From Prochlorothrix hollandica PCC 9006 = CALU 1027 (GTDB taxonomy: Bacteria; Cyanobacteriota; Cyanobacteriia; Prochlorotrichales; Prochlorotrichaceae): a stretch of DNA of 64,000 nt. Under the pieces are notes generated by a model. The model ran no database searches. It was given only the letters and a program-made list of their open reading frames with translations, and was not told the DNA's origin. The stretch is taken from positions 773,101 through 837,100 of the forward strand of contig NZ_KB235933.1 of the NCBI RefSeq assembly GCF_000332315.1, read 5' to 3'. Positions 4,119 through 64,000 of this stretch are shown one piece after another (within the stretch, counting starts at the first letter, position 1; each line of letters opens with the position of its first letter). Made by a program: the position numbers and the translations under genes.

Positions 4119-4218
4119 TACAGCAACCCTAAATCAGTTGTAGGCATCTCGATGGCTGAAACCCTTGGTGTGGTGTGCCCCCGGAGGCACACCACACGAC
4201 CCATTTAGGACTGCTGTA
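4119..4218. mobile_element. family 1 MITE-like element, copy 1
   Basis: A palindromic element of about 100 bp bounded by TA and ending in CAGCA(A/G)(C/T)CCTAAAT inverted repeats. A central hairpin carries GTGGTGTGCCCCC and its complement. It is the first of eleven copies in the window. It lies about 50 bp upstream of the ftsY start and could affect that promoter. Confidence 0.85.
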
Positions 4219-6086: not shown

Positions 6087-6605
6087 ATGAATATGAAGCG
6101 CTTATCCATTTTTGTAGATGGAAATAATATGTTCTATGCCCAGCAAAAAAATGGCTGGTTTTTCGATCCCCGTCGAGTTTTGGAGTACTTTACCCGCGAC
6201 TTGGTGTTGATGAATGCCTTTTGGTATACGGGCATTAAGGATCCCCAGGATCAACGGGGCTTTCGGGATGCCCTCATTAGTTTGGGTTACACCGTTCGCA
6301 CGAAAATCCTGAAGGAATATTACGACGATAATTCGGGCCGCTATTCCCAAAAGGCCAACCTCGATATTGAAATTGTGATTGATATGTTTAATACCGTGGA
6401 GCAGTACGATCGGGTTGTTCTGTTTAGTGGCGATGGGGACTTTGAGCGGGCGATCGAACTGCTGCGATCCAAAAGTACCCACATCACCGTGGTCTCCACC
6501 GAGGGCATGATTGCCCGCGAACTGCGCAATGCCACGGATCACTACATCGATCTCAACAACATTCGTGAAGAAATCGAGAAGCTAGAAAATACCTGGTTGC
6601 CTTAA
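6087..6605 (+). CDS. NYN-domain protein, LabA/DUF88-like (first of two)
   Basis: A 172-residue protein made of a single NYN (PIN-like nuclease fold) domain. Acidic residues expected for metal binding are present: IFVDGNNMF near the N terminus, KANLDIEIVIDM (about 91-102) and LFSGDGDFERAI (about 112-123). The tail DHYIDLNNIREEIEK is typical of cyanobacterial LabA-type proteins. LabA of Synechococcus elongatus acts in circadian output; whether this paralogue does is not shown by sequence. ATG at 6087 is chosen; a second ATG follows at 6093. It stands alone after a 2-kb repeat-rich spacer. A paralogue of 203 aa lies at 15413-16024. Confidence 0.88.
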   Translation: MNMKRLSIFVDGNNMFYAQQKNGWFFDPRRVLEYFTRDLVLMNAFWYTGIKDPQDQRGFRDALISLGYTVRTKILKEYYDDNSGRYSQKANLDIEIVIDMFNTVEQYDRVVLFSGDGDFERAIELLRSKSTHITVVSTEGMIARELRNATDHYIDLNNIREEIEKLENTWLP

Positions 6606-6718
6606 GTGCGATCGCCAGCAGGGCAACTCTAGATCCCATAGCAACGGTCTTTAGAAACGGCATATAAACCCAGTCATTGCATTGACATACCGCTGCCCTC
6701 GCTACCCCACCCCCCCCT

Positions 6719-8722: not shown

Positions 8723-9165
8723 CCTTGGTTCTTGATCAACATCACATCAATGATGTTTTTCGCCGTCTCTTCCGGCATTTCCAGCACCTGATACAGTTCA
8801 TCCAGGAATGCCTTCTCCTCTGGGGTGACGACCCCATCTGCCAACACCAGATCGGTGGCCACTGCAAAGGCGGTTTGGCGCAAGTGTTCCGGCAAAGAGT
8901 CCTTGGCGGACAGAAACAGCGCAGACACCCCCCCCCGCTTCAATCTGCCCAGCAACTTATCAAATAATCGCCGCATCATGTCATCGGAATAGGTTTGGAA
9001 TAACTTCATCCGCGAGAGAATAAAGGGAATGCTTTGGGCCTCCTCATCCGATAGATAGCCATCGGAGGCAACGGCTGCCAGGGCGATCGCGGCAAAGGAT
9101 TCCCCCGCATTGAGCTTTTCCATCTCTGGGGTGGGTGCCGAAACACCCTTGTCAAATAAGCCCAT
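8719..9165 (-). CDS. TerB-like (tellurite-resistance B fold) protein
   Basis: A 148-residue helical protein. The duplicated acidic motif of the TerB family is visible: AAVASDGYLSDEEAQSIPFI (about 31-50) and LVLADGVVTPEEKAFLDEL (about 106-124), where Asp/Glu residues probably bind metal. Such proteins are widespread in cyanobacteria and are usually not linked to tellurite; the function is unknown. It converges on the CHASE2 cyclase with a 4-bp overlap of the 3' ends. The ATG (MGLFDKG) is supported by an AGGAAGG-type purine tract upstream. Confidence 0.85.
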   Translation of the reverse strand: MGLFDKGVSAPTPEMEKLNAGESFAAIALAAVASDGYLSDEEAQSIPFILSRMKLFQTYSDDMMRRLFDKLLGRLKRGGVSALFLSAKDSLPEHLRQTAFAVATDLVLADGVVTPEEKAFLDELYQVLEMPEETAKNIIDVMLIKNQG

Positions 9166-10129: not shown

Positions 10130-10132
10130 GCC

Positions 10133-10804
10133 TTGACTCCTCCTAAACCCCAAACCGATCTCCGCTGGTTGCCCCTCGTTGTGGGGGGGCTGGGGGGTAC
10201 GTTGTTATTCATCAATCGTCTCTTAACCCCGGTTCTGCTGGATTCCCAAGCCCGATCCGATGCCTTAGGGGTGTTCCTCAGTGCCCTGCTGATTTTGGTG
10301 GGGCTAGTGTGGCAACAGGTTCAACCCCGCAACCCTGAGGCGGTGGTGTTGGTGGGGGAGGCGGGCATGGAACTTCAGACGGATTTACCGGATGCTGTCC
10401 AGGTGGAGTTGGCCTGGATGTCCCAGATTTTGTTGACCAATACGGCGACGCGATCGCTGGTGGTGTGGTATGGCGATCGTATCCTGCTGCGGCGGGGGAT
10501 TTTGGCCCCAGGGAAGACCGTGACCCCAGGGGCGATCCTAGGGCGGGTGCTGGAAAAACAAAGACCGGTGTATCTGGTCAATCTCAAGCTCTATCCAGGG
10601 CGCTTTGAGTTTGACTATTTGCCTGAAAATACCCAGGGGGTTATTTGCCAACCCTTGGGCCGCAACGGTGTCCTGATTTTGGCGGCTAATGCGCCCCGCA
10701 GCTATACCCAACAGGATGAGCGCTGGGTGGAAGCCTTGGCGGAAAAGCTGACCCACAGCCTGGACCAATGGTCTTCTCTACCGGAAAATCCGGCCAACGG
10801 ATAG
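10133..10804 (+). CDS. cofactor assembly of complex C subunit B (CCB2/CCB4-like, DUF2930)
   Basis: A 223-residue membrane-anchored protein with two N-terminal hydrophobic helices (about 11-30 and 43-62, LPLVVGGLGGTLLFINRLL and GVFLSALLILVGLVW) followed by a soluble domain (VELAWMSQILLTNTATRSLVVWYGDRILLRRG ... GVICQPLGRNGVLILAAN). This layout matches the cyanobacterial/plastid CCB2-CCB4 family, which helps attach heme c(i) to cytochrome b6 of the b6f complex in thylakoids. The start is TTG at 10133, since no ATG occurs before the first helix. It is only 3 bp behind the preceding gene. Confidence 0.8.
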   Translation: MTPPKPQTDLRWLPLVVGGLGGTLLFINRLLTPVLLDSQARSDALGVFLSALLILVGLVWQQVQPRNPEAVVLVGEAGMELQTDLPDAVQVELAWMSQILLTNTATRSLVVWYGDRILLRRGILAPGKTVTPGAILGRVLEKQRPVYLVNLKLYPGRFEFDYLPENTQGVICQPLGRNGVLILAANAPRSYTQQDERWVEALAEKLTHSLDQWSSLPENPANG

Positions 10805-10876
10805 GTTCCGGTGTCCCGTCTGCCCATCCCTGCGTTGTCCGTCCAGGGTTCAAGGATAGATCATTGTGCTGGGTTT

Positions 10877-10960
10877 ACGTTTTTGAGACGCTGTTTCTGA
10901 GGCGCTGTTTCTGAGGCGCTATTTCTGAGGCGCTGTTTCTGAGACGCTATTTCTGAGACC
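10877..10960. repeat. 14-bp tandem repeat, about 6 units
   Basis: Units of TGTTTCTGAGGCGC with G/A variants, in the spacer downstream of the CCB-like gene. A family 1 element follows at 11089. Confidence 0.85.
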
Positions 10961-11088
10961 CTGGGGAGCGTCTGTAAAGACCGATACATAATTTCGTTGG
11001 AATTATCCCTTACCTGAGATAATGGCCGCAGACATTGGGTTGCCCTGGGTTTGTTTCTGAAAGACTTGCAACAATTCTTCACAGGTCT

Positions 11089-11191
11089 TACAGCAGTCCG
11101 AAATGGGTCGTGTGGTGTGCGCCCGGAAGGGGAACACCACCCAAAGGGTTTCAGCCATCGAGATCCTTACAACTGATTTAGGATTGCTGTA
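11089..11191. mobile_element. family 1 MITE-like element, copy 2
   Basis: TA-bounded, with TACAGCAGTCC at the left and GGATTGCTGTA at the right. The central hairpin has diverged (GTGCGCCCGGAAGGGGAACACC). It lies about 160 bp upstream of the DUF502 gene. Confidence 0.85.
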
Positions 11192-11351
11192 CAACTAATA
11201 GAGTGAAGTTAATGACGTGAAGTGTAATTCAGAAATAAGTCTGAAAATAGTCCCCTTCTCGCCCATACTGCCCACGGGACGCTCTGAGGGAGTTGTAGGT
11301 CTAGGGCTAGAGGTCAGTGGAAAAGTCTGCGCCTGCTGAGGAAGAGTATTT

Positions 11352-12107
11352 GTGTTTGAACGCTTGAAACAAGATTTTAAAAACGATCTTATTGCAGGGC
11401 TGCTGGTGGTGATTCCACTGGCGACAACCATTTGGTTAAGCACCACGATCGCCCGCTGGGTTTTCAGCCTCTTAACCAGGATCCCCAAGCAACTCAACCC
11501 CTTTAATGATCTCACCCCCCTGGTGGGCAATCTTCTTAATATTTCCATTGGTTTGGCGGTGCCCCTCTTGATCATCATGATCATTGGCTTGATGGCCCGG
11601 AACATTGTGGGCCGCTGGTTTTTGGATCTGGGGGAGCGCACCCTCCAAGCCATTCCCTTTGCGGGATCCCTGTATAAAACCCTGAAGCAACTGCTGGAAA
11701 CCATTTTCCGAGACACCCCCGATCGCTTCCGGCGGGTCGTTCTGCTGGAATATCCCCGCAAAGGGGTTTGGGCCATTGCCTTTGTCACGGGGGCCGTCGG
11801 CAGCAGTTTCCAAACCCACATGGAAACCCCCATGCTCAGTCTTTTTTTACCCACCACCCCCAACCCCACCACCGGCTGGTATGTCATCGTGGCCGAGAAT
11901 GAAATCATTGACACAGACATGTCCGTGGAAGATGCTTTTAAGGTTCTGATCTCCGGGGGCATTGTCTCCCCCAATACCCCCGCCTCAGGGTCGGCCCGCC
12001 CCCATCACACCGATCAACAGCCCACTGCTCAAGTCCCACCCCCACGGGTTCCCCAGACCCTTGCCCTGGAGGAAGAACCATCCCAATCCCTCCGACCCAT
12101 GCCTTGA
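11352..12107 (+). CDS. DUF502 family membrane protein
   Basis: A 251-residue protein with two N-terminal membrane helices (about 13-35, LIAGLLVVIPLATTIWLS, and about 58-82, NISIGLAVPLLIIMIIGLMARN), followed by the conserved cytosolic part (ERTLQAIPFAGSLYKTLKQLLETI, VVLLEYPRKGVWAIAFVTG, GWYVIVAENEIIDTDMSVEDAFKVLISGG). This is the DUF502 signature; the function is unknown. The start is GTG at 11352, preceded by GAGGAAGAG at a good distance. The Pro-rich tail after residue 215 is not conserved in the family as I know it. nusB follows after 15 bp, an arrangement common in cyanobacteria, so the two probably form an operon. Confidence 0.9.
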   Translation: MFERLKQDFKNDLIAGLLVVIPLATTIWLSTTIARWVFSLLTRIPKQLNPFNDLTPLVGNLLNISIGLAVPLLIIMIIGLMARNIVGRWFLDLGERTLQAIPFAGSLYKTLKQLLETIFRDTPDRFRRVVLLEYPRKGVWAIAFVTGAVGSSFQTHMETPMLSLFLPTTPNPTTGWYVIVAENEIIDTDMSVEDAFKVLISGGIVSPNTPASGSARPHHTDQQPTAQVPPPRVPQTLALEEEPSQSLRPMP

Positions 12108-12122
12108 CCTGAGTCTTTAACC

Positions 12123-12797
12123 ATGCAACGCCAACCCCGCCGTCTTGCCCGTGAACTTGCCCTGCTTGTGCTGGGCCAGACTGCTAACCGCCAAGCTAAC
12201 CTCACCGATGAGTCCACCTTGCAATCCCTACTGTTGGCCACGGTGCGCACCTTGGTGATGGAGGCCCATGACTCCCTAGAAGCTGCCACCACAGAACTGA
12301 CCCAAGGCAACGAGCAATTACTCAACAGCAACGTCCAAGCCCCCACCCTGGACAGTGCCAAGGCCATGGTGCAGGATGCTGCCGCATTAACCCAAAAAGC
12401 CATTAACCAGGTGGGCATTGCCCTGGAGTTGCCGGAACTGATCCAAATGGCCCGCCAGGATGACATTCGCACCTTTGCCATCACCCTCTGCCAGGAAGTC
12501 CACAGCCAGCGATCGCGGTTGGATGCTGTGCTCAACCAAGCCATGGTGGACTGGCAACTGAGCCGCCTGCCTCGGGTGGATCAAGATATCCTCCGCATTG
12601 CGGTGGCCGAAATCCTCTGCTTGGATATCGGCCATCAGGTGGCCATTAATGAAGCGGTGGAACTGTCGAAGCGCTATAGCGATGAGGAAGGACGACGACT
12701 GATCAATGGGATTTTGCGCCGGGTGGTGCAATCCCTAGAGGCGGAGACCCTGGGGGAGGAAAACACCGATCCGGCGGCGATCGCCGATCTGAGTTAA
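12123..12797 (+). CDS. nusB: transcription antitermination protein NusB
   Basis: NusB with NusE (S10) binds boxA RNA and keeps RNA polymerase processive through rRNA operons. The 224-residue protein starts RQPRRLARELALLVLGQ. It ends with the diagnostic NusB core (RLDAVLNQAMVDWQLSRLPRVDQDILRIAVAEIL ... VAINEAVELSKRYSDEEGRRLINGILRRV). It is longer than E. coli NusB (139 aa), with an inserted region at about residues 55-120, as is usual in cyanobacteria. It lies 15 bp after the DUF502 gene. A family 2 element begins 32 bp downstream. Confidence 0.96.
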   Translation: MQRQPRRLARELALLVLGQTANRQANLTDESTLQSLLLATVRTLVMEAHDSLEAATTELTQGNEQLLNSNVQAPTLDSAKAMVQDAAALTQKAINQVGIALELPELIQMARQDDIRTFAITLCQEVHSQRSRLDAVLNQAMVDWQLSRLPRVDQDILRIAVAEILCLDIGHQVAINEAVELSKRYSDEEGRRLINGILRRVVQSLEAETLGEENTDPAAIADLS

Positions 12798-12829
12798 AAA
12801 CTGAACTCTCAGGAGGCCCGGAAACTAAA

Positions 12830-12925
12830 GGGCACCTCGAAAAATCAAAATTCTCGCCCCTGTACCCACGCAAGAATCAGGGTTGTGGCGGGCGGCTTCG
12901 CTCAACCCAATTAATCGAGGTGCCC
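12830..12925. mobile_element. family 2 element with 4-bp target duplication (TAAA)
   Basis: A 96-bp element with inverted ends GGGCACCTCGA, flanked on both sides by TAAA (12826-12829 and 12926-12929). The inner part carries 'cgcaagaatcagggttgtggcggg', common to all copies. Confidence 0.85.
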
Positions 12926-13130
12926 TAAACTAGGTTTTTTGAGGGAATTCTGGGAATTTAGGGTTTAGTTTTGTAAAGCAATGTTGATATATCTAATATT
13001 TTCTCATTTTTAGACCCGTATTCCCACCGTTATCTCTCAGGTAAGTCACAATAAGACTAGTTTCCTGATGGCTGATCCATTCACTTCGGCATAAGTCGTA
13101 TAGTAATTTCTACTGTTTCTAACAAGTCCT

Positions 13131-14735
13131 GTGAACGCCCCCTCAAAACCTTTTGCCATTACAACTCCCCTTTATTACGTCAACACCGTTCCCCACATTG
13201 GCAGCGCTTACACCACCATTGCCGCTGATGCCCTCAGCCGCTTTCACCGTCTCCAAGGCCATCCCACCCTATTTATCACGGGCACCGATGAACATGGCCA
13301 GAAAATTCAGCGCATGGCGGAACAACGGCAACTGTCGCCCCAGGAACATTGTGACGAAATTGTGGGAGGGTTCAAAACCCTTTGGGATAAACTCCTGATT
13401 CGGTACGATCGCTTTAGCCGAACCACCGATCCCCGCCATGAAACGATCGTGGGCGAGTTTTTCCAGCGGGTGAAGGAGCAGGGAGATATTTACTTAGGCC
13501 AACAACAGGGATGGTACTGTGTCGCCTGTGAAGAGTTCAAGGAGGAGCGAGAGCTACTGGATGGCGATCGCCCCGAAAAACGGTGCCCCATCCACAGCAA
13601 CCAAAGCGTGGAATGGCGCGATGAACGCAACTATTTCTTTCGTCTCTCCAAGTACCAAGCAGCCCTAGAAGCCCTCTACGATAGCCAACCGGACTTTATT
13701 CAGCCCCCCAGTCGCCGCAATGAAGTCCTCAGTTTCGTCAAACGGGGTCTCCAAGACTTCTCCATTTCCCGCATTAATTTGGATTGGGGCTTTCCCGTGC
13801 CGGGGGATCCGGAGCATACCCTCTATGTCTGGTTCGATGCCCTGCTGGGGTATGTCACCGCTCTGCTGGAACCCGATGATGAGGTTAGCCTCGATCGTGC
13901 CCTGGCCCAGTGGTGGCCCATCAACCTCCACCTAATCGGCAAAGATATCCTCCGCTTCCATGCCGTTTATTGGCCCGCCATGTTGATGTCAGCGGGTTTG
14001 CCCCTGCCCGATCGGGTCTTCGGTCATGGTTTCCTCACCAAAGACGGCCAGAAAATGGGTAAAAGTCTCGGCAATACCTTAGATCCGGTGGCCCTGGTGG
14101 ACACTTACGGAGCCGATGCCGTCCGCTACTATTTCCTCAAGGAAATTGAGTTTGGCCGCGATGGGGATTTCCAACAGACCCGCTTTGTCCATAGCTTAAA
14201 TGCGGACCTAGCCAACGATCTGGGTAATCTACTTAACCGCACCTTGACCATGGCTAAACGCTATTGCCAACAACAGGTGCCCGCCCTCAGCGGTGCGGAC
14301 TTTCCAGCGGATCATCCCCTGAAACAAGTGGGGCAGTCTCTCCAGGAACGGGTCCCCCAGGCTTACCACGCTGTAGCCTTCAGTGTCGTCTGTGAAGGGG
14401 TGCTGGAACTGGTGCGGTTGGGTAACAAATACCTGGATCGAGAAGCGCCCTGGAGCCGCTATAAAGCAGGGGACCAGGCGGCTGTGGAGCAGATTCTCTA
14501 TGGGGTGCTGGAGTCGGTGCGGTTGGGTGCCTACTGGCTGTCTCCCATTATTCCCAGCCTCAGTACAGCCATTTACCAACAATTAGGATTTTCCGTAGAC
14601 TTTAACGATTTTACAAATTTACACGTTACGCTAGGAAATAATACTCATCACACTTGGGGAATTTTACCGGGGGGACAACCCTTGCAAGACCCCACTCCCA
14701 TTTTCCGCACCTTAGATCTGCCGGAGGGGGAGTAG
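13131..14735 (+). CDS. metG: methionyl-tRNA synthetase
   Basis: Charges tRNA-Met. The 534-residue class I synthetase has the HIGH-type motif PHIGSAYTT (about residues 21-29), a zinc-type knuckle region (WYCVACEEF ... RCPIHSNQ) and the signature KMGKSLGNTLDP (KMSKS equivalent, about 305). The anticodon-binding helical domain occupies about 350-500. There is no C-terminal EMAP/Trbp111 dimerisation domain, the usual short cyanobacterial form. The start is GTG at 13131 (VNAPSKPFAITTPLYYVN); no upstream in-frame ATG is present. Confidence 0.97.
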   Translation: MNAPSKPFAITTPLYYVNTVPHIGSAYTTIAADALSRFHRLQGHPTLFITGTDEHGQKIQRMAEQRQLSPQEHCDEIVGGFKTLWDKLLIRYDRFSRTTDPRHETIVGEFFQRVKEQGDIYLGQQQGWYCVACEEFKEERELLDGDRPEKRCPIHSNQSVEWRDERNYFFRLSKYQAALEALYDSQPDFIQPPSRRNEVLSFVKRGLQDFSISRINLDWGFPVPGDPEHTLYVWFDALLGYVTALLEPDDEVSLDRALAQWWPINLHLIGKDILRFHAVYWPAMLMSAGLPLPDRVFGHGFLTKDGQKMGKSLGNTLDPVALVDTYGADAVRYYFLKEIEFGRDGDFQQTRFVHSLNADLANDLGNLLNRTLTMAKRYCQQQVPALSGADFPADHPLKQVGQSLQERVPQAYHAVAFSVVCEGVLELVRLGNKYLDREAPWSRYKAGDQAAVEQILYGVLESVRLGAYWLSPIIPSLSTAIYQQLGFSVDFNDFTNLHVTLGNNTHHTWGILPGGQPLQDPTPIFRTLDLPEGE

Positions 14736-14885
14736 CGATGAGCTTAGGGTGATGTAGCCTACCCTGCCCGATCGGGTCACCGACAGTCCGGGCTAGGTTG
14801 TGCAGAACCCTAACCATCCATGGATGGATTTTCTAGACAAAGGAAACGGAAACTGTTCCTCACCCCTCTGCCTGGATCATCCTAA

Positions 14886-14988
14886 TACAGCAGTCCTCAA
14901 TGGGTCGTGTGGTGTGCGCCCGGAGGGCGCACACCACCCAAGGGGTTTCAGAGATCGAGAGCCTTACAACTGATTTAGGGTTGCTGTA
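14886..14988. mobile_element. family 1 MITE-like element, copy 3
   Basis: TA-bounded, 103 bp, TACAGCAGTCCTCAATGGGT at the left and ATTTAGGGTTGCTGTA at the right, with a GCGCCCGGAGGGCGC central hairpin. It lies in the spacer downstream of metG. Confidence 0.87.
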
Positions 14989-15131
14989 TCATCACGGTGT
15001 CCAACTGTCATCACGGTGTTAACTGTATAATTGCCAACTCTATACAAGACGGCGAAAGGGTACAGTACCTCTGATGGGCTTCCGCCTGCGGTAGAGGGTG
15101 ATTTTGATACCCCTTGAGAGTGGGTCTCATA

Positions 15132-15218
15132 ATGGGCATCGCCATGGTCATAGGCATGGCTATCGGTCTGGGCATCGCCCTAGTTCTGGGCATTGCCCTA
15201 GTCAGCATCTTTTTATAA
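15132..15218 (+). CDS. possible 28-residue hydrophobic peptide
   Basis: ATG at 15132 opens a frame of 28 codons ending TAA at 15216-15218: MGIAMVIGMAIGLGIALVLG followed by IALVSIFL. It would be a single membrane helix with no charged residue. The DNA is itself made of GGCATCGCC/GGCATTGCC-like repeats, so it may be a repeat by-product. The purine-rich GAGAG lies about 11 nt upstream. No family is recognised; treat as tentative. Confidence 0.25.
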   Translation: MGIAMVIGMAIGLGIALVLGIALVSIFL

Positions 15219-51325: not shown

Positions 51326-52963
51326 ATGAACACCGCAGAATTGTTGATCCAATGCCTAGAAAATGAAGGGGTTGAATATATCTTTGGGCTACCGGGAGAA
51401 GAAAACCTCCATGTTTTAGAAGCCCTTCAAGGGAGTTCCATTCAGTTTATTACCACCCGCCATGAACAGGGGGCCGCTTTTATGGCCGATGTTTATGGAC
51501 GACTGACCGGGAAAGCGGGGGTTTGCCTGTCTACCCTGGGTCCGGGGGCCACCAACTTGATGACGGGAGTGGCTGATGCCAACTTGGACGGAGCGCCCTT
51601 GGTGGCCATTACGGGACAGGTGGGCACCGATCGGATGCACATTGAATCCCACCAATATTTAGACCTGGTGGCCATGTTTAACCCGGTCACCAAATGGAAC
51701 ACCCAAATTGTCCGGCCCAATAATACTCCGGAAATTGTCCGTAAAGCCTTCAAACAGTCCCAATCGGAAAAACCGGGGGCCGTCCACATTGACTTGCCGG
51801 AAAACATTGCCGCCATGGCAGCGGAGGGAAAAGCCCTCAAGCGGGATAACCAGGAAAAAACCTTTGCAGCCTACCATGGCTTAAATCAGGCGGCTACTCT
51901 GATTTCCCAGGCGGTTAATCCCCTGATTTTGGTGGGGAACGGGGCCATTCGGGCCAATGCCAGCGAAGCCCTGACGGAGTTTGCCACCCAGTTACAAATT
52001 CCCGTGGCCAATACCTTTATGGGCAAAGGGGTGATTCCCTATACCCATCCCCTGGCCCTGTGGACTGTGGGGTTGCAGCAGCGGGATTTGATTAGCTGTG
52101 GCTTCGATCGCACCGATCTCGTCATTGCTGTTGGCTATGATCTCATTGAATATTCCCCCAAACGCTGGAACGCCGAGGGCAAGATTCCCATTATTCACCT
52201 AGGCAATAACCCCGCTGAAATTGACAGCAGCTATATCCCAGCGGTGGAAGTGGTGGGGGATATTTCCGACTCCCTGATGGAAATTCTGCGGCGCACCGAT
52301 CGCAGCCAAAAAGCCAAGCCCTACGCCACCAGTCTCCGGCCCGGCCTTTGTGCCGACTATGAGCAATATGCTAAGGATGAGGAATTTCCCGTTAAGCCCC
52401 AAAAAATTATTTACGATCTGCGATCGGTGATGGGGGATGAAGACATTGTGATTTCCGATGTGGGTGCCCATAAAATGTGGATGGCCCGCCATTACCACTG
52501 TTCCCGCCCCAACACCTGCATCATTTCCAATGGGTTTGCAGCCATGGGGATTGCCATCCCCGGAGCCTTGGCCGCGAAGTTGGTTTACCCCGATCGCAAG
52601 GTGGTGGCAGTGACCGGAGATGGGGGCTTTATGATGAACTCCCAGGAGTTGGAAACGGCCCTGCGTATTGGCACCGCCTTTGTGACCTTGATCTTCCATG
52701 ATGGGGGCTATGGTCTCATTGAATGGAAGCAACAAAACCACTTTGGCCACTCGTCCTTTATCAAGTTTAATAACCCTGATTTTGTCAAGTTTGCCGAAAG
52801 CATGGGTCTCAAAGGCTACCGCGTGGAAACCACAGCCGATCTGGTTCCCATCCTCCAGGAAGCCCTAGCCCAGGATGTGCCAACGGTGATCGACTGTCCT
52901 GTGGACTATCGGGAAAACCTCATGTTCACCAAGAAAGCAGGTCAATTACTCTGTTCTACCTAG
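51326..52963 (+). CDS. 2-oxoglutarate decarboxylase (annotated elsewhere as acetolactate synthase large subunit)
   Basis: A 545-residue thiamine diphosphate enzyme. The catalytic Glu lies in TTRHEQGAAFMADVYGR; the ThDP/Mg motif begins TGDGGFMMNSQELETALRIG and ends FHDGGYGLIEWKQ. The central domain is normal (LILVGNGAIRANASEALTEF). By motifs alone it is an AlsS/IlvB-type protein. The neighbouring SSADH gene in the same orientation argues for the 2-oxoglutarate decarboxylase of the cyanobacterial TCA shunt. No acetolactate synthase small subunit or ilvC is nearby. ATG 51326 (MNTAELLIQCLENEGVEYIFGLPG). Confidence 0.85.
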   Translation: MNTAELLIQCLENEGVEYIFGLPGEENLHVLEALQGSSIQFITTRHEQGAAFMADVYGRLTGKAGVCLSTLGPGATNLMTGVADANLDGAPLVAITGQVGTDRMHIESHQYLDLVAMFNPVTKWNTQIVRPNNTPEIVRKAFKQSQSEKPGAVHIDLPENIAAMAAEGKALKRDNQEKTFAAYHGLNQAATLISQAVNPLILVGNGAIRANASEALTEFATQLQIPVANTFMGKGVIPYTHPLALWTVGLQQRDLISCGFDRTDLVIAVGYDLIEYSPKRWNAEGKIPIIHLGNNPAEIDSSYIPAVEVVGDISDSLMEILRRTDRSQKAKPYATSLRPGLCADYEQYAKDEEFPVKPQKIIYDLRSVMGDEDIVISDVGAHKMWMARHYHCSRPNTCIISNGFAAMGIAIPGALAAKLVYPDRKVVAVTGDGGFMMNSQELETALRIGTAFVTLIFHDGGYGLIEWKQQNHFGHSSFIKFNNPDFVKFAESMGLKGYRVETTADLVPILQEALAQDVPTVIDCPVDYRENLMFTKKAGQLLCST

Positions 52964-52973
52964 GACGCTGTTC

Positions 52974-53240
52974 GAGAGTTTCACTCAAATAATGCTGTTG
53001 GTCGATGGCGATCGCTAGCATCTGTTGGCCTGGGTCGTGATGCCTCATCCCATTGGCTGGACCCTCTCGAACGTTGAGATGGGATTGTCGAGTTGTACTC
53101 GACCCTAAGCCGACTACAAGTCGGCTCTCCCAGGGGGATTGTCGAGTCTCCCAAGGGGATTGTCGAGTCTCCCAAGGGGATTGTCGAGTCTCCCAAGGGG
53201 ATTGTCGAGTTGTACTCGACATTATTGGAGTGAAACTCTC
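52974..53240. mobile_element. family 3 element, copy B (inverted), with 8-bp flanking repeat (one mismatch)
   Basis: Ends GAGAGTTTCACTCAAATAATG and ATTATTGGAGTGAAACTCTC, flanked by CGCTGTTC (52966-52973) and CGCTGCTC (53241-53248). It has three internal 21-bp CTCGACAATCCCCTTGGGA-type units against two in copy A. It starts 11 bp after the decarboxylase stop. Confidence 0.75.
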
Positions 53241-53310
53241 CGCTGCTCCACTTAAACACTGTTCTACTTAAACGCTGCTCCACTTAAACACTGTTCTACT
53301 TAAACGCTGT
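53241..53310. repeat. 16-bp tandem repeat, about four units
   Basis: CTGCTCCACTTAAACA alternating with CTGTTCTACTTAAACG, between the family 3 element and the GAF gene stop. Confidence 0.8.
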
Positions 53311-55795: not shown

Positions 55796-55849
55796 CCGGT
55801 GTCCCCCAGGAGTGGGTCCTAGGACACCCGGATGTCAGTTCCCCTCCGC

Positions 55850-56106
55850 TCCCCCCTGGGAGAGCCGACTTGCAGTCGGCATTGGGTCGAGTACAACTCG
55901 ACAATCCCCCCTGGGAGAGCCGACTTGTAGTCGGCATTGGGTCGAGTACAACTCGACAATCCCCCCTGGGAGAGCCGACTTGCAGTCGGCTGTGGGTCGA
56001 GTACAACTCGACAATCCCCCCTGGGAGAGCCGACTTGCAGTCGGCATTGGGTCGAGTACAACTCGACAATCCCAGGTGATGGGTTTGTGTTGAGTGAAAC
56101 TTTCTG
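55850..56106. repeat. family 3 array of four tandem hairpin units
   Basis: About 58-bp units, each AGCCGACTT(G/T)(C/T)AGTCGGC plus GGTCGAGTACAACTCGACA plus CCCCCTGGGAG, repeated four times. The degenerate end TTGAGTGAAACTTTCTGA (56089-56106) matches the family terminal repeat. It lies between the convergent dacB and amidase genes and could stop transcription from both sides. Confidence 0.8.
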
Positions 56107-56125: not shown

Positions 56126-57745
56126 CTAGGGAGCGAGGGCGGTTTGTTGGGCATAGGTCAAAATCCCTTGGGCGATCGCCTGGGCAATTTGTCCACGGGC
56201 TTCGCTGTTACGGAACCGAGCCGCATCCTCAGAACCTGTCACAAACCCGGTTTCCACCAGCACCGACGGCATCGACGTATTGCGCAGCACATAAAAGCGG
56301 GCTTGACGCACCCCCCGATCGCGCAGATCCGTTCCCCGCAGAATACTGTTGTGGATAGTTTGGGCCAAACCAGAACCAGAGTCATAGTAATAGGTCTCCA
56401 AACCGTTGACCTCAGGGCGATCCATGGAAATGGCATTGGCATGGATACTGACAAACAGTTGGGCTGCCATGCGCTCCGCCTGATCAACCCTGGGTTCCAA
56501 CTCCACTTCCACATCTCCAGGACGAGTCAACATCACGGCAATGCCCCGACTTTCCAGAATCTGTTGAACGCGGCGGGCAATATCCAGGTTGATTTCCTTT
56601 TCCTGTAAGCCCCCGATGCCCACGGCACCGGGATCACGACCCCCATGGCCGGGATCTAAGATCACCCGGATCCGTCCCACGGGAATTTGGGTGGGGGGCA
56701 GGGGATTGGGGGATTGGGGATTGGGCAGGGGGGGATTGGGACGGGGGGGCACGACACCGGTGCCCTGGATGATTTGGGCCGGGATCCGCGCTGCCATCAG
56801 GTTCTGTTGCAGCTCGATCGCCCGCCACTGTTCCTGAAATAACCCCGCCTGGATCACCGACTGGCCGTTGAGGGTGGTGCGGAATGCCCCCGGTTCCACC
56901 GCCTGGACGCGGCGTTGGGTGTCGGCGCTGGTGTTGGGCACAATGACCCGGTAATTGGTCGCTGCCCCCGGATTGCCGGAGGGGGGACCCGGAAGAGTGG
57001 GGGGAGAGGGCACCACCACCGGAGGCAAGGGATTGGGTTGCGGGACGGGTTGGCGGGGGGGAGTCGCCACGATGGGGGGCGTGGTCACGGGGGGGGGCAC
57101 GGGGGCACTGGGGACCCCAGCCAGGGCCGCCAGGGATTGATCATGGGTGACATAGACATGGCCCAAGGGCTGACCGTTGTAGAGGCGTTGGGTCAGCCGC
57201 CAACCCGGATCTAAGGACACCTTGAGAAACCCCTCCCCCAGGCCATTGGTGCGACCGATGGTGAGGGGGGGAGCAGCACGGTTGGCCGCTGACACGGCTT
57301 GCAACACCAGTTGCCCCCCCTGCTTCACCAGTTGCAGCCGATATTGCCAGTTGAGGTCTTCCCCGGCAAGGCGCACTGAATAGCCGTTGCTGTCAACGCT
57401 GCGGTCACAAATCCCCGTGAAGTCGAAGTTCAGTAACAGGGGATCAATGCGAGTGGGCTGTCCCGGCAGTTCTTGCCAGCAGGCCCGCTGGTTGCTGACT
57501 TGGCGCAAAATCAGCAGTTGGTAAAAGCGCCCATTATCTACGGGTTTGGCGACGGCAATGGTGCGGCTTTGATCCAGTTCCTGTTGGCCAAACTCAGACA
57601 GGGCTAGGGCGGGGGCGCTCAGCCCGCCGAGGGTGGCGGTGAGGGCGGTGGCGGTGACCAGGGCCATGGGGGTGAGGCGATGGAGAAGGCCACGGCGGAG
57701 AACAGCAGCACGGCGGATAGAGGAGCGAAGGAGGGCAGTGATCAT
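56126..57745 (-). CDS. N-acetylmuramoyl-L-alanine amidase with N-terminal DUF3747-type domain
   Basis: A 539-residue secreted protein. Signal peptide (about 25-48, ALVTATALTATLGGLSAPALA), then a domain of DUF3747 type (about 50-210, ELDQSRTIAVAKPVDNGRFYQLLILRQV), a Pro-rich linker, a SPOR-like segment (about 265-325, NYRVIVPNTSADTQRRVQ) and Amidase_3 (about 355-535). Zinc and catalytic residues: His in DPGHGGRDPGA, Glu in LQEKEINLDIA, His in FVSIHANAIS, Glu in SVLVETGFVTG. It cleaves the stem peptide from peptidoglycan during cell separation. ATG 57745. Confidence 0.93.
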   Translation of the reverse strand: MITALLRSSIRRAAVLRRGLLHRLTPMALVTATALTATLGGLSAPALALSEFGQQELDQSRTIAVAKPVDNGRFYQLLILRQVSNQRACWQELPGQPTRIDPLLLNFDFTGICDRSVDSNGYSVRLAGEDLNWQYRLQLVKQGGQLVLQAVSAANRAAPPLTIGRTNGLGEGFLKVSLDPGWRLTQRLYNGQPLGHVYVTHDQSLAALAGVPSAPVPPPVTTPPIVATPPRQPVPQPNPLPPVVVPSPPTLPGPPSGNPGAATNYRVIVPNTSADTQRRVQAVEPGAFRTTLNGQSVIQAGLFQEQWRAIELQQNLMAARIPAQIIQGTGVVPPRPNPPLPNPQSPNPLPPTQIPVGRIRVILDPGHGGRDPGAVGIGGLQEKEINLDIARRVQQILESRGIAVMLTRPGDVEVELEPRVDQAERMAAQLFVSIHANAISMDRPEVNGLETYYYDSGSGLAQTIHNSILRGTDLRDRGVRQARFYVLRNTSMPSVLVETGFVTGSEDAARFRNSEARGQIAQAIAQGILTYAQQTALAP

Positions 57746-58301
57746 GGTGTTGGCTGAATCAGGAAAAGGCAGGTCATGGATCGAGTCCCGGCGATGGCCC
57801 AGGCCAAAGAGAACCGGTTCCTCGGTTGATGGTGCGCACCCCTCGTCTCGTCCCTCATCTGGTCCATCCTGGAGACGATGGGGAGACCCACCGGGGGGTA
57901 ACCCTGGGCTGGGGGCATCGGTTCCTAGGGGGGGGACTGCTCCGGCGAGGGGAGGCTTGGGAAGTCTCGACTCTCTGATGGCTCCCCAATGTTCCCCGAT
58001 CGACTTTTGAGTGTACGGTGAGGGGGCGTTAAAGGCGAGGGTTATCTAACCCGTTAGGGTTGCTAGGACTCCCCTAGGTCTTCCGAGGGGATGGGCGCTA
58101 TTTCTGATCAGAGGGGTCACTTTTCCAGGTGGTTCAGGTTCACCGATCGAGGCGGGGGGTGTTAAGAATGCCGGGTTGTGGCTTAGGGTGATGAAGGTTC
58201 CCTGAGGTGAACCGGGCACACTCAACTGAGTGAAGCAAATGAGTTAAGCAGGGCTAAAGCCCTTACTCAAAAACAATTACGGTTTGATCGATTCGTTCGC
58301 T
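57746..58301. other. spacer, no gene recognised
   Basis: Between the divergently placed amidase and the toxin-antitoxin genes. ORFs here look like artefacts. GAGTTAAGCAGGGCTAAAGCC at 58230-58250 is hairpin-like. A family 6 element follows at 58302. Confidence 0.45.
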
Positions 58302-59707: not shown

Positions 59708-59947
59708 TTAAAGATCAATGTCATCTTCTAGGGGCAGCAGTCCTTGATCACAGTCAGGCCAGTCTTCGTCGAGGGGGGAGAGGGTGGCGGCGAAGGCAAG
59801 CAGGGATTTGGGTTCAGGGGAGGGCAGTTGAAAAGGGTTTGAGGGGAGCCAGTGGGTGTCGATCGACTGGAGGAGTTCAGAGGCGAGGCGAATTTGGTCG
59901 GGGAGGCTGAGTTCTTTGGCGGCGGTGAGCAGTTCGGTGAAGGTCAT
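59708..59947 (-). CDS. VapB-like antitoxin partner of vapC
   Basis: A 79-residue acidic protein (MTFTELLTAAKELSLPDQIRLASELL, with acidic C terminus LPLEDDIDL). The N-terminal helix resembles cyanobacterial VapB-type antitoxins, and it ends 8 bp before the vapC ATG, so the two form a module. No ribbon-helix-helix sequence is evident, so the assignment rests mainly on context. Confidence 0.7.
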   Translation of the reverse strand: MTFTELLTAAKELSLPDQIRLASELLQSIDTHWLPSNPFQLPSPEPKSLLAFAATLSPLDEDWPDCDQGLLPLEDDIDL

Positions 59948-60246
59948 GGTTGGGTTTCCTGGGGAGGAGGTAAAGGGCTGACGGTTTTTTGTCGCGGCTG
60001 ACTTAGTAGCGTTGGATGAATCGCTTGGTCATAAATTGGGCGGATGCCAACCAACGGCGACCCATCGCTGGCGTGCTGCAACAAGGTTGTGTCAATCAAA
60101 AGACTCTAAATCATTTGTACTACAGAGCTACGTTTTGTTTGCAATTCTCCTGAATTTCGTATCAGCTATGATACCGTTTGAATTTAAAACTGCTGCAGAC
60201 GCGCTTATCCTGCGTTGTTAATGCACCCTAATGAACGGAACGGGCA
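59948..60246. other. spacer, nothing recognised
   Basis: 299 bp without a supported gene. A 69-residue open frame on the + strand (60012-60221) has no recognisable content. Confidence 0.4.
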
Positions 60247-61824
60247 CTATTTGGATTCATCAAATGCAGTTCCTAAGTTGCGTTTCTTTATTGAGTGCGT
60301 ACCTTTAAGCGGTCTTGATTCAGTTTCCTCTGTTTGTGCTGGTATAGGTTGCTTATCGTCATGAGTTAGATCGTGAGTTGGATCTTTTGCAGGTTGATTG
60401 AAAGCGGAACCAAGCTTATCGTGGGGGGAGGTGATTGTTTCTTGTGGGGAGATGGTTGTTTCTTGTACTGATATAGGTTGATTATCGTCAAGTTTGAAAG
60501 CGGAACCAAGCTTATTATGAAGGGTGATGGTTGTTGTCAAATTCGGTACGATTGCAAACTCTGCTACAACTTTAATGTCAGATGTTAGGGCGATCGTAAC
60601 AGACGTTTTAGCAACATTAATATCACCAATATCACCTGTCCAACGGCTAAAGCGCCATGTGTCTGAATTAGACCAAGCATTAATGTTTACAAGTGTTCCG
60701 ATTTTGTGATTACCAGCACCACTAACTTTGACAAATTCTTGGGCTTCAATTGGAAAGATTTCGATTTGGATCGAGCCAAATGGTTTTGGTATTTTTTCAT
60801 ATCGGGCAATTATTTTTATGTTTTTATCTATCACGAGATCGAGGCTGTTATTAGATTCTACAATATCGCCATCCCATCCGATAAACTCCCAGTCAGGAAA
60901 AGCAGTCGCTTTAACATTAACTTGTCTGCCTTCGGCATATTTGCCACCGCCTTCGACTTTACCTGCTTCTGGCGGATCTAGTTCTATTTCAAGAATATAC
61001 TTGGGCTTGAGTCCGCCGCTAGATTCAGGTTCCCGTTTAATCTCGGTTTCTGGTATTTCGATCGGGTTTGAAGGAGCATTAACTTCTGCTGCCGTATCGG
61101 AAAAGATATCGGTTAGAGCTTTTTTCAGTTCTTGAAAGAGGTTACGCATACGTTTAAACCGTTGGCTAGGATCGGGGTTGGTTGCTTGGAGATACCATGA
61201 TGATGAGCAAATATTGGGACACCAGTAAGCGATCGTTTTGGCAAAGGCGTAGGTGTCAATGGTGTCCCTAGATTTATTTGCTGAGTTTGCATCGGTTATT
61301 TCGGGTGGTAAAAAATCACCACAATCTTCGATCGCGTCTTTATTACCTTGCATTAGAAATGGCGCATAGCCAAATCCGCTTAAATAAACTTTATTGTCTT
61401 TAAGAATAAAACTTTCGGGATTAACTTGTCCGTGAATTAGTTTTTTATTGTTGAGAATATGGAGTAATTCGGATGCTTCAAATAAATATTTTAAAACCAA
61501 CTCAAGACTAGGATTTCTCGATAAGTCTAAAATACTACCAAAAAATTCTGGATAAATGATGACCAAAGGTAGATCTTTATTTGATATGACTTGTTCGGGG
61601 GGGATAATTCCTTGACGGTGAACATTTTTAAGATCATCAAAATAATCAAAGGCTTCTTTCACTTCTCCTTTTTGGCAATCCTTTAAAAGAACTTGAATGG
61701 TATGGACTTTTTGTGTGTTTAAGTTGATTCCTCCAATCCATTGATACAAATGAGATTCTTTCAGAGCTTTAATTAGCGCATATTTTCCTGCGATCGTTTG
61801 CCCGATTTTAGTTTGGTGTTGCAT
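60247..61824 (-). CDS. pseudokinase with two InlB-type beta-repeat domains
   Basis: A 525-residue protein. Residues about 1-230 have a Ser/Thr kinase-like layout (HGQVNPESFILKDNKVYLSGFGYAPF, DFLPPEI, DTYAFAKTIAYW). The catalytic positions are lost: HRD is HGQ, DFG is GFG and no Lys is seen at the expected beta3 site (HTIQVL). About residues 270-345 (ELDPPEAGKVEGGGKYAEGR ... FIGWDGDIV) and 355-435 (SRWTGDIGDI) form InlB-type beta-repeats. The tail (about 440-525) has LGSAF, LGSAF and LGTAF in a charged, disordered region. No signal peptide or membrane helix. It is the last gene of a three-gene cluster; function unknown. ATG 61824. Confidence 0.75.
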   Translation of the reverse strand: MQHQTKIGQTIAGKYALIKALKESHLYQWIGGINLNTQKVHTIQVLLKDCQKGEVKEAFDYFDDLKNVHRQGIIPPEQVISNKDLPLVIIYPEFFGSILDLSRNPSLELVLKYLFEASELLHILNNKKLIHGQVNPESFILKDNKVYLSGFGYAPFLMQGNKDAIEDCGDFLPPEITDANSANKSRDTIDTYAFAKTIAYWCPNICSSSWYLQATNPDPSQRFKRMRNLFQELKKALTDIFSDTAAEVNAPSNPIEIPETEIKREPESSGGLKPKYILEIELDPPEAGKVEGGGKYAEGRQVNVKATAFPDWEFIGWDGDIVESNNSLDLVIDKNIKIIARYEKIPKPFGSIQIEIFPIEAQEFVKVSGAGNHKIGTLVNINAWSNSDTWRFSRWTGDIGDINVAKTSVTIALTSDIKVVAEFAIVPNLTTTITLHNKLGSAFKLDDNQPISVQETTISPQETITSPHDKLGSAFNQPAKDPTHDLTHDDKQPIPAQTEETESRPLKGTHSIKKRNLGTAFDESK

Positions 61825-61857
61825 AATAAATTAAGCATCCTATACTTTTACTTTTAA

Positions 61858-62753
61858 TTAGTTACGGATATACACTTTTAATTTATAACTAGTTGGATTT
61901 CTCCATACTCTAAAGGTATACAGCAACCCTAAATCAGTTGTAAGGATCTCGAAGGCTGAAACCCTTGGTGTGGTGTGCCCCCGGAGGGGGCACACCACAC
62001 AACCCATTTAGGACTGCTGTATGTTCCCGAAGAAGATACTGGAAAATTATTAACAACATCAGGGACAGAGCCATTATTCATTGACCTTGCTATTATTTGC
62101 TTATTGGCATTCAAAATTTCAAGATCAGCATCAGCAGCCATATCAAATAAGTAAGCATCAAAGCTTTGTGAAGCTTTGATATATATTTCATAATCATCAT
62201 GAGGGTTAACACTTGTCAACTCTCCTGAATATATTTTATAGTCGATGCTTGAATTCTCAAGAGCTTTAATTTTTTCATTATTAGTTATAATTTTTTGAGT
62301 TAATTCACTTTTTTCCCTCTCTAGTGTTTTTTTATCTCCTTCTAGTTTCTCTTTTTCTTCTGTTAGCGACTGGTTTTGTTTCTCCAGTTCTTCTTTATCT
62401 CTTTCAAGTGAGACGATATTTTGAATAAGGCTTTTCTTTTCTGCATTGTAAGTATAGACAATGGCGGAAAGAAGGAAAAAAGAAATTAAAGATAGGGTGA
62501 TAAGTGCTGCAGATGGTTTGAAAACTCTCTTGAAAGTAGCGGTAGCGGTTATATCTTTTTCCATCACAACAGAAAAGATCTGTTTAGAATGAGATAAGTC
62601 TCCAATCCATCCAATAAATTTCCACCCATCAAAGGCGCTTACATGAACTTGAACTTCTCTACCTTCAGCGTACTTTCCTGCACCATCAACTTTCCCCGCT
62701 ACTGGTGGATCAATGATAATTTTGAGTTCGTATTTTGGTGTAATTCCAGTCAT
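61858..62753 (-). pseudogene. membrane coiled-coil protein with beta-repeat, C terminus broken by a family 1 element
   Basis: ATG 62753 (MTGITPKYELKIIIDPP). Domains: InlB-type beta-repeat (about 1-75, KYAEGREVQVHVSAFDGWKFIGW), a membrane helix (about 82-104, LITLSLISFFLLSAIVYTY), a Glu/Lys coiled coil (about 108-165), and a beta-domain resembling pre-peptidase C-terminal (PPC) modules (about 172-245, IKASQSFDAYLFDMAADADLEI). At GTY the reading frame enters the element at 61919-62021 and stops at 61929 (274 residues). Removing the element and one TA gives TFRVWRNPTSYKLKVYIRN then a stop at 61858, a plausible beta-domain ending. The present version may still fold. The Hsp70 gene precedes it by 34 bp and the pseudokinase gene follows, making an operon likely. 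Confidence 0.8.
61919..62021. mobile_element. family 1 MITE-like element, copy 11, inserted in a gene
   Basis: TA-bounded, TACAGCAACCCTAAATCAGT ... ATTTAGGACTGCTGTA with central GTGTGCCCCC hairpin. In minus orientation it supplies about 29 foreign codons and a stop to the coiled-coil gene. Precise excision restores a continuous frame, which shows TA target use. Confidence 0.9.
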
Positions 62754-62787
62754 AGCTTTTGCACGAGTGTTTGATCATGTAATTCAT

Positions 62788-64000
62788 CTAGGCATATCCA
62801 AAGGAATCGCCCCAGCGATCGCCATCGATCTCGACAGTCACAGTGACATTTTGTTCTGTATCGACTTTGAATATCACCATGATGTCTAGTGATTCAGCTT
62901 TAGCTGGTGGTAAGTCTGTAATTTTGATTGTGCCAATCCTGGCATTATCTTGGACATCAGGTGCAGAACCTTGATAAACGTTAATGTCGAGCGATGTCAT
63001 GTTGTCTACATCATTCGTAAATAACTGACTGCGCTCCGAAGGTGTCGGTTGGTTAGCTGCAATTAATTCAAAGAATCTACCACCAGCTTTTTCTAAACCT
63101 AACGCATGACAGGTACGAGTTTTGACTTCGATCTCGCGTCCAAAAATCTCCCGATCGTCCAGATATGCTGCGTACATGGCTGCACCTTCCGCAACGCATA
63201 GGGATGGATTGATATTGCCATAGACTTTTTCTTCCCCAATCAAGTCACAAACCAAGGCTTTCATGCAAGGAATACGACTAGAGCCACCGACCAGAATTAC
63301 CCGATGCATATCCGATGGGCGCAAGTTGGCAACAGCCCAAAGTTTCTGGACGATCGCATCAATCTTTCTTGTGTAAGTTTGAATAGATTGCTCAAAGTCA
63401 TCGCGGGTTATTTTAATGTCAATATCTTTACCAGGAATGACACTACCTATCCCAACATATGCATAATCAGCAGCCGACAAAGTGATCTTTGTTTCAATGG
63501 CTTGTGCCATGACTTTTAGTCTTGCTTTTTTCTGCTCAATTTCAGTCAATCCAGATAAACTGACTTCACCTCTCTCTAAAATTAAATTATATAAACATTC
63601 ATCAAAATCCATGCCACCCAAGCGATCGTCTCCCCCTGTTGCCAAGACTTCAAACAACAACTTTTCAGGCGTTTGATGTAAGCAAAATAAGGTCAAATCA
63701 AAGGTTCCACCACCCAGATCAAACACTAAAATATTTTCTTTTATCTCTTGATCGGGACGATCTTGGACTAGTTGCCAAGCATAAGCAAGGGACGCAGCAA
63801 TCGGTTCTTGAATTAAACCAACTAACTCGATATTAGCAATCTCTGCGGCTTTTCGAGTGTGAGCGCATTGATGAGCTTTGAAGTAGTAGGGAACCGTCAC
63901 GATCGTACCGCGACTTTTAAAACTCTGTCCATCTCCATGTTGTTTAGCAACATTTTGATATAACTCATGCAAGATCTTTGCAGATAGATCAATGGGAGAA
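62788..64000 (-). CDS. Hsp70-family ATPase, start beyond the window
   Basis: Open from the window edge (SPIDLSAKILHELYQNVAKQHG) to the stop at 62788, about 400 residues seen. Hsp70 nucleotide-binding motifs: TVPYYFKAHQ, EPIAASLAYAW, VFDLGGGTFDLTLF and VILVGGSSRIPCMKAL. A short substrate-binding beta domain follows (CHALGLEKAGGRFFELIAANQPTPSERSQLF ... NVTVTVEIDGD) and there is no helical lid, unlike DnaK. Such short Hsp70 relatives occur in cyanobacteria with unknown clients. It is the first gene of the three-gene cluster in this view. The first ~100 residues are missing only because the window ends. Confidence 0.9.
   Translation of the reverse strand, partial: SPIDLSAKILHELYQNVAKQHGDGQSFKSRGTIVTVPYYFKAHQCAHTRKAAEIANIELVGLIQEPIAASLAYAWQLVQDRPDQEIKENILVFDLGGGTFDLTLFCLHQTPEKLLFEVLATGGDDRLGGMDFDECLYNLILERGEVSLSGLTEIEQKKARLKVMAQAIETKITLSAADYAYVGIGSVIPGKDIDIKITRDDFEQSIQTYTRKIDAIVQKLWAVANLRPSDMHRVILVGGSSRIPCMKALVCDLIGEEKVYGNINPSLCVAEGAAMYAAYLDDREIFGREIEVKTRTCHALGLEKAGGRFFELIAANQPTPSERSQLFTNDVDNMTSLDINVYQGSAPDVQDNARIGTIKITDLPPAKAESLDIMVIFKVDTEQNVTVTVEIDGDRWGDSFGYA

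Follow-up and report, generated by a model that had tools for sequence, protein, structure and literature searches.

Hsp70 is usually regarded as a housekeeping folding machine. We describe here an operon built around four Hsp70 genes in the cyanobacterium Prochlorothrix hollandica PCC 9006 = CALU 1027, the last three genes of which lie at the end of a 64,000-nucleotide stretch of contig NZ_KB235933.1 (positions 773,101 to 837,100; hereafter the window) and encode an Hsp70 (HspD), a membrane protein with an InlB-type repeat (InlTM) and a pseudokinase (PsK). The trio forms the 3′ end of an operon that was acquired by horizontal transfer, is rare and, in this genome, is partly broken. Several described systems resemble it in part. 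The DO-GTPase conflict systems of the GAP1-N2 type include themes in which HSP70 is found with GrpE and themes in which a kinase is found with PP2C and a vWA protein (Kaur et al. 2020; PMC7159879). The TerY-P triad of Anantharaman et al. 2012, as cited in PMC11090510, consists of a vWA protein, a PP2C and a kinase, and the CoCoNuTs combine Hsp70 homologues with TerY-P (PMC11090510).

The two GAP1-N2 themes are the nearest in content, and the operon joins elements of both. The likeness lies in HSP70 and GrpE, sometimes with a second, shortened HSP70, in the membrane-linked parts, and in the vWA, kinase or trypsin components of sister themes. The operon differs in having no DO-GTPase, GAP1, FNIII/DnaJ or TPR component (no operon protein gave a Pfam match to a GTPase or to GAP1), in carrying InlB repeats, a pseudokinase and as many as four Hsp70s, all with the beta substrate-binding domain retained, and in being cyanobacterial, whereas the GAP1-N2 systems are those of actinobacteria and firmicutes. 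With TerY-P it has in common the vWA proteins, a kinase-fold protein and a tail of peptide motifs, and its vWA1/vWA2 pair also occurs in TerY-P-like loci, but there is no PP2C or TerY_C protein among its genes and the kinase is dead, with Hsp70s, a GrpE-like protein and a protease present instead.

The CoCoNuT type IV restriction systems also bring Hsp70 homologues, coiled coils and a TerY-type vWA together in one locus (PMC11090510). The operon differs from them in having no McrB GTPase, McrC, HEPN or other nuclease, its proteins giving no match to the McrB NxD GTPase or to McrC, and each of its Hsp70s is a protein of its own in which the ATPase residues are intact, whereas degenerate Walker A-like motifs are described for the CoCoNuTs (PMC11090510). 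The MoxR-vWA ternary systems resemble the operon in having an NTPase chaperone with a vWA partner, a trypsin-like protease and exchangeable modules (PMC7159879); here Hsp70 replaces the MoxR AAA+ ATPase, there is no AAA+ gene, and no VMAP or iSTAND was identified. The operon belongs to none of these four types, and would work like them if the function proposed below is right. A preliminary description of the window had named no system with such a composition, and none with exactly this composition was found in the literature, most subscription-only papers aside.

Gene content and domain architecture

The operon comprises about ten genes, all co-directional, in the order (5′ to 3′) vWA1, vWA2, trypsin-like protease, HspA, HspB, HspC, a coiled-coil GrpE-like protein (GrpE-cc), HspD, InlTM and PsK. 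Intergenic gaps are mostly 8-104 bp, and the operon extends about 9 kb beyond the end of the window, upstream of the last three genes. For these we use window positions, and for the upstream genes the coordinates of L009, a genomic stretch around the window in the same genome. Along L009 lie vWA1 (14331-15212), vWA2 (13318-14322), the trypsin-like protease (12720-13301), HspA (11132-12664), a remnant of HspB (10825-11121), HspC in two pieces (10132-10737 and 7885-8904) and GrpE-cc (6414-7919 as listed, with orthologues suggesting a start near 7853). HspD occupies 62788-64000 on the minus strand of the window and continues to window-equivalent 64284, 284 bases past its end (498 amino acids in full), followed on the same strand by InlTM (61929-62753) and PsK (60247-61824).

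The preliminary description had recognised at these positions three minus-strand genes for a lid-less Hsp70, a membrane coiled-coil protein and a kinase-fold protein. All three are real, but the unit to which they belong is the ten-gene operon, which adds two vWA proteins, a protease, three further Hsp70s and a GrpE-like protein. A spacing of about 34 bp had been given for the trio; the gap between HspD and InlTM is indeed 34 bp, while that between the present InlTM open reading frame and PsK is 104 bp, because an inserted element cuts the 3′ end of InlTM.

All four Hsp70s are matched by the Pfam HSP70 family, with E-values from 5e-79 for HspD up to 1e-115 for HspA, and all four retain the ATPase residues D8, K70, E171, D194 and T199 (DnaK numbering). 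In each of them the canonical VLLLD linker of DnaK is changed or lost and the alpha subdomain, or lid, is absent: HspA, HspC and HspD end after the beta domain, and in HspB the position of the lid is taken by a different C-terminal module. HspD consists of a nucleotide-binding domain and a complete beta-type substrate-binding domain and then ends. The predicted structure of its orthologue from Pseudanabaena cinerea contains these two domains only (mean predicted local distance difference test score, pLDDT, 85.7), and in structure comparison the model is nearest to DnaK and BiP. Judged by the established biochemistry of DnaK, the loss of lid and linker suggests an altered coupling between ATP and substrate. 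In a tree of Hsp70s HspA and HspB are sisters (support 100/99); the branch leading to HspD is very long, and the deeper nodes are weak.

The HspB proteins of P. cinerea and Pseudanabaena sp. UBA1465 are 78% identical over 480 amino acids and unrelated thereafter, ending in a vWA domain in UBA1465 and in an unclassified module in P. cinerea, for which no Pfam or NCBIfam family, solved structure or plasmid protein was matched. Swapping a C-terminal module on a constant body in this way is typical of conflict systems (cf. the shared features in PMC7159879). To the eye only, the last 270 amino acids of the P. cinerea protein (L012 2083-2892) have a Rossmann or amidotransferase-like look. GrpE-cc carries a Pfam GrpE domain at its end (residues 338-499; E=3.5e-10, with a score of 40.3 bits where the cut-off is 25.8). 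The ratio of nonsynonymous to synonymous substitution (dN/dS) is 0.05-0.10 for the Hsp70s, vWA1 and the protease, with HspD at 0.07 against UBA1465, which marks strong purifying selection; PsK and GrpE-cc change faster (0.25-0.33), and the contrast fits the split of roles proposed below.

In PsK, which lies on the minus strand, the pseudokinase domain (about 61219-61818) is followed by a pair of InlB repeats (about 60553-60987) and a low-complexity tail. It aligns with cyanobacterial protein kinases across both lobes (hhalign, probability 97%, E=8e-11) and with Aurora kinases around the catalytic loop. The residues of an active kinase are all replaced in the window protein: Q44 stands in place of the beta3 Lys and Q133 in place of the HRD Asp, S138 occupies the position of the catalytic-loop Asn, and the DFG motif has Gly for its Asp. 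Q44, Q133 and N135 are invariant across the three PsK orthologues, and since Q44 and Q133 are thus kept in both Pseudanabaena proteins PsK is a conserved pseudokinase. The early claim of a kinase fold without catalytic residues therefore holds on both counts, by profile homology and by the replacement of all four residues.

InlTM, likewise on the minus strand, has an N-terminal InlB repeat (62526-62708), a single hydrophobic transmembrane helix (residues 81-99; 62457-62513) and after it a coiled coil (about 62238-62450). The InlB repeat (Pfam Flg_new_2) is matched with E=2e-17 in PsK and E=3e-10 in InlTM, and the repeats of the two proteins are 50% identical over 78 amino acids (E=7e-23), far above chance, so the relationship that had been noticed between them stands in both profile search and pairwise comparison. 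InlTM is the least constant part of the operon, with two copies in P. cinerea and none found in UBA1465; one P. cinerea homologue, InlTMb, has a PPC domain at its C-terminus, where the window protein is interrupted.

Neither vWA1 nor vWA2 matched a Pfam family. An alignment of 13 vWA sequences has an invariant DxSxS...T...D metal-site pattern, and a vWA1/vWA2 profile weakly matches solved vWA domains. The tail of PsK contains, on the minus strand, the motif LGSAF at 60496-60510 and 60400-60414 and LGTAF near the C-terminus at 60262-60276. Each PsK tail has three to four copies of an LG[ST]AF-like motif, against a mean of about 0.001 in shuffled sequences, and G[ST]AFxESK lies near the C-terminus in all three orthologues. 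Relatives of vWA1/vWA2 also stand at the head of loci in other cyanobacteria (L043, L075 and L076) that contain genes for a TerY-type vWA, CAP, PP2C and a kinase; these are TerY-P-like loci, and they end in proteins, here called X, whose tails repeat INP[IL]F and LG[DT]AF. A wider pattern, [LIVM][GN]x[ALI]F, which was picked after the tails had been seen, has 2-4 matches in each of seven tails (PsK and X) and none in the bodies. Because the vWA pair neighbours both types of tail, it is the first candidate for a reader of the motif.

Distribution, transfer and damage

Relatives were sought in 386 cyanobacterial genomes from across the phylum, in which the window genome is the sole representative of its order, in 38 genomes of the Pseudanabaena family and in 120 genomes of the order of a further genome, G125. 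A single scan of 84,980 species genomes, which detects close relatives only, found relatives of PsK solely in P. cinerea FACHB-1277 and Pseudanabaena sp. UBA1465. P. cinerea carries the full set, uninterrupted and enlarged by two genes towards the 3′ end, in the order vWA1, vWA1, vWA2, protease, HspA, HspB, HspC, GrpE-cc, HspD, InlTM, InlTM, DUF29, PsK. In UBA1465 the order is HspB, HspC, GrpE-cc, HspD, DUF29, PsK, with no InlTM between HspD and PsK; the contig is short and does not show the upstream part. The three genes of the window thus recur elsewhere, as HspD-InlTM-InlTM-DUF29-PsK in the one genome and HspD-DUF29-PsK in the other, and gene order is conserved across the three genomes, with InlTM as the variable element.

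Full-length matches to a GrpE-cc profile were confined to the window genome among the 386 cyanobacterial genomes and to P. cinerea and UBA1465 among the 38 of the Pseudanabaena family (2/38). The PsK profile, in the cyanobacterial genomes, matched this genome only, plus ordinary kinases weakly. The vWA1 family is broader, occurring in 8/386 cyanobacterial genomes and in 5/120 of the order of G125. No near-identical HspA was found elsewhere in the phylum in a search limited to such copies (E<=1e-130, three scored candidates per genome). Plasmids yielded no match to PsK, vWA1, GrpE-cc or the HspB module of P. cinerea, and for HspD and HspC only ordinary DnaK-like relatives below 60% identity. 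A phage origin is not supported, since scans of viral contigs with GrpE, vWA and PsK alignments found no relative.

The guanine and cytosine (GC) content of the cluster is 40.4%, against 55.7% in window positions 1-60000, and that of the P. cinerea operon is 40.5%. DNA similarity to Pseudanabaena begins at vWA1 and stops within PsK, coinciding with the operon, and is largely collinear, with an identity of 82-85% in the longest blocks and 70-87% over all aligned pieces. Protein identity is 88-93% for vWA1, the protease, HspA and a piece of HspC and 75-88% for HspD, while the best pair of housekeeping DnaK proteins between the two lineages reaches 66%, below most operon proteins. Because of the low GC content, and because most operon proteins are more alike than the housekeeping DnaK, horizontal transfer between the lineages is the simplest reading, and the GC content points to this genome as the recipient. 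The transfer that had been suspected from the AT-richer composition is thus strengthened by a similarity confined to the operon. GrpE-cc is only 40% identical to that of P. cinerea, which places the source nearer to UBA1465 in this part.

Three genes of the transferred copy are damaged. Of HspB there remain about 95 codons at the start and, beyond a deleted middle, a short segment resembling the end of the vWA-type HspB of UBA1465. An ISL3-type element, whose inverted ends are GGCTCTCTGGGA/TCCCAGAGAGCC, divides HspC in two. The C-terminus of InlTM is interrupted by a palindromic insertion of 101 bp (61920-62020) with inverted ends ACAGCARYCCTAAAT, similar to a miniature inverted-repeat transposable element (MITE); beyond it the InlTM frame still resembles the uninterrupted P. 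cinerea homologue up to a stop at 61858-61860, 33 bp from PsK. The system is probably crippled in this genome. Elements of this MITE-like family (~100 bp, ends ACAGCARYCCTAAAT) are frequent in the window, with further copies near 4120, 36064, 51092 and 54055.

Toxin-antitoxin-type genes (PIN, UPF0175 and DUF3368) adjoin the cluster, as had been reported. Three pieces of the left flank, 56532-56954, 57942-58149 and 59834-60084, recur on the right flank of the island at L009 15755-16177, 16171-16378 and 16999-17249 with 95-98% identity (98% for the last). They correspond to an amidase gene, the spacer downstream of it and an antitoxin-like gene, the parts between them being absent on the right flank, and these duplications mark how the island was inserted or rearranged.

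Possible function of the operon

The best reading of the operon, which we hold with somewhat less than even confidence, is that of an Hsp70-driven signalling or conflict switch. In such a switch the lid-less Hsp70s would act as ATP-driven conformational or assembly devices rather than as general folding chaperones, and GrpE-cc would be their dedicated exchange factor and scaffold. The vWA pair may read short motifs in peptides, among them the LGxAF repeats of the PsK tail, and PsK and InlTM may contact one another through their InlB repeats, tying the complex to the membrane. Upon a stress or invasion signal the switch would release the variable output module of HspB or cut it with the protease, which could be trigger or executor. 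A chaperone-based signalling role of this general kind had been suggested for the trio in the preliminary description, and we infer it here for the operon as a whole.

Several observations weigh against this reading. There is no J-domain protein gene in the operon, nor was a nuclease, a pore, another recognised toxic effector or a sensor found in it, and the defining cores of known conflict systems (MoxR, DO-GTPase-GAP1 and McrB) are absent. PADLOC matches to MkoA, RT-Protease and PDC-M61B were rejected, as common domains were shared and no match was specific to a system. The kinase fold of PsK rests on sequence, a structure model from a three-row alignment having a mean pLDDT of 31, and the wide tail pattern was chosen post hoc.

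It is possible, if rather doubtful, that the operon represents a distinct class of Hsp70-centred switch, in which the place of the AAA+ or GTPase motor of known conflict systems is taken by several lid-less Hsp70s that have a dedicated exchange factor, and the vWA proteins read the LGxAF/INPLF tails and so control both a pseudokinase tethered to the membrane and the exchangeable output module of HspB. Were this true, the fourfold lid-less Hsp70s, the private GrpE-like protein, the peptide-reading vWA pair and the swapped output would mean that Hsp70 ATPases have been adapted as signalling or defence switches, and the repeated tail motif common to PsK and the TerY-P-like loci would be a candidate ligand for an otherwise unexplained vWA family.

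The presence of the same vWA1-vWA2 pair at the head of loci with TerY-type vWA, PP2C and kinase in other cyanobacteria, and of X proteins with related repeated tail motifs at the end of the vWA-pair loci, could also be accounted for by a stress-signalling relay like TerY-P, in which Hsp70 ATPases and a dead kinase replace the kinase and PP2C and there is no role in defence. This appears unlikely to us, as the operon has neither PP2C nor an active kinase, and its trypsin-like protease and exchangeable HspB module suit a conflict system at least equally. We would give somewhat less credence to a machine for membrane or envelope proteostasis, in which the folding, holding or degradation of specific surface or membrane proteins would be the task of dedicated Hsp70s, GrpE and an HtrA/trypsin-like protease, with InlTM as the receptor and PsK as the scaffold. 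Such a machine would agree with the presence of a serine protease in the same operon as Hsp70 and GrpE, with the strong purifying selection and with the P. cinerea InlTM homologue being a membrane protein with a PPC domain. However, the operon is rare, transferred and decaying, unlike housekeeping proteostasis, it has no J-protein, all four Hsp70s are without a lid and have a changed linker, and the vWA pair, the pseudokinase and the swapped HspB module would be left unexplained. That the operon is selfish or non-adaptive cargo, a transferred block kept briefly and functionless in this genome, as the three independent lesions and shuffled flank duplications might suggest, is improbable given the purifying selection over the divergence from Pseudanabaena and the order conserved in three genomes, and would concern this copy rather than the system as such.

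Related and neighbouring loci

The vWA-pair loci L042, L043, L046, L075 and L076 of other cyanobacteria are all of the TerY-P-like kind, headed by relatives of vWA1/vWA2, and a terminal X protein with a repeated tail motif is often present in them. Relatives of vWA2 in the Pseudanabaena family (L044 11149-13590 and L045 7324-9606) are fused to a transmembrane helix and a long low-complexity region, the former also bearing an OmpA domain and having a canonical-type Hsp70 gene directly upstream. LGxAF matches in the OmpA-vWA2 fusions were rejected as tail motifs, as they fall within the transmembrane helix. In genome G125 (L047 8426-10687) the frame of a dynamin-family GTPase is continuous with the final section of a vWA1 relative and is followed by a truncated relative of HspA (66% identity over 180 amino acids); this is probably a decayed sister locus.

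Within the window, intergenic tandem short repeats at 52960-53280 and 55810-56080 read through several frames (GRADLQSAL.., SSTTRQS..). Locus L011 (3317-6077) contains three tandem, nearly identical genes for proteins of 290-301 amino acids (MNGIPDRYLNPLTDFGFKKLFG...), a kind of gene to which annotations often give the name Rpn/PD-(D/E)XK transposase-like. The window genome also carries a second unusual Hsp70 cluster (L010 8115-14754), in which the gene for an Hsp70 of 734 amino acids precedes those for a LysM-like membrane protein, a TPR protein and a second membrane protein, which is DnaJ-like, and Hsp70s close to it in length (741 amino acids) are present in both Pseudanabaena genomes.

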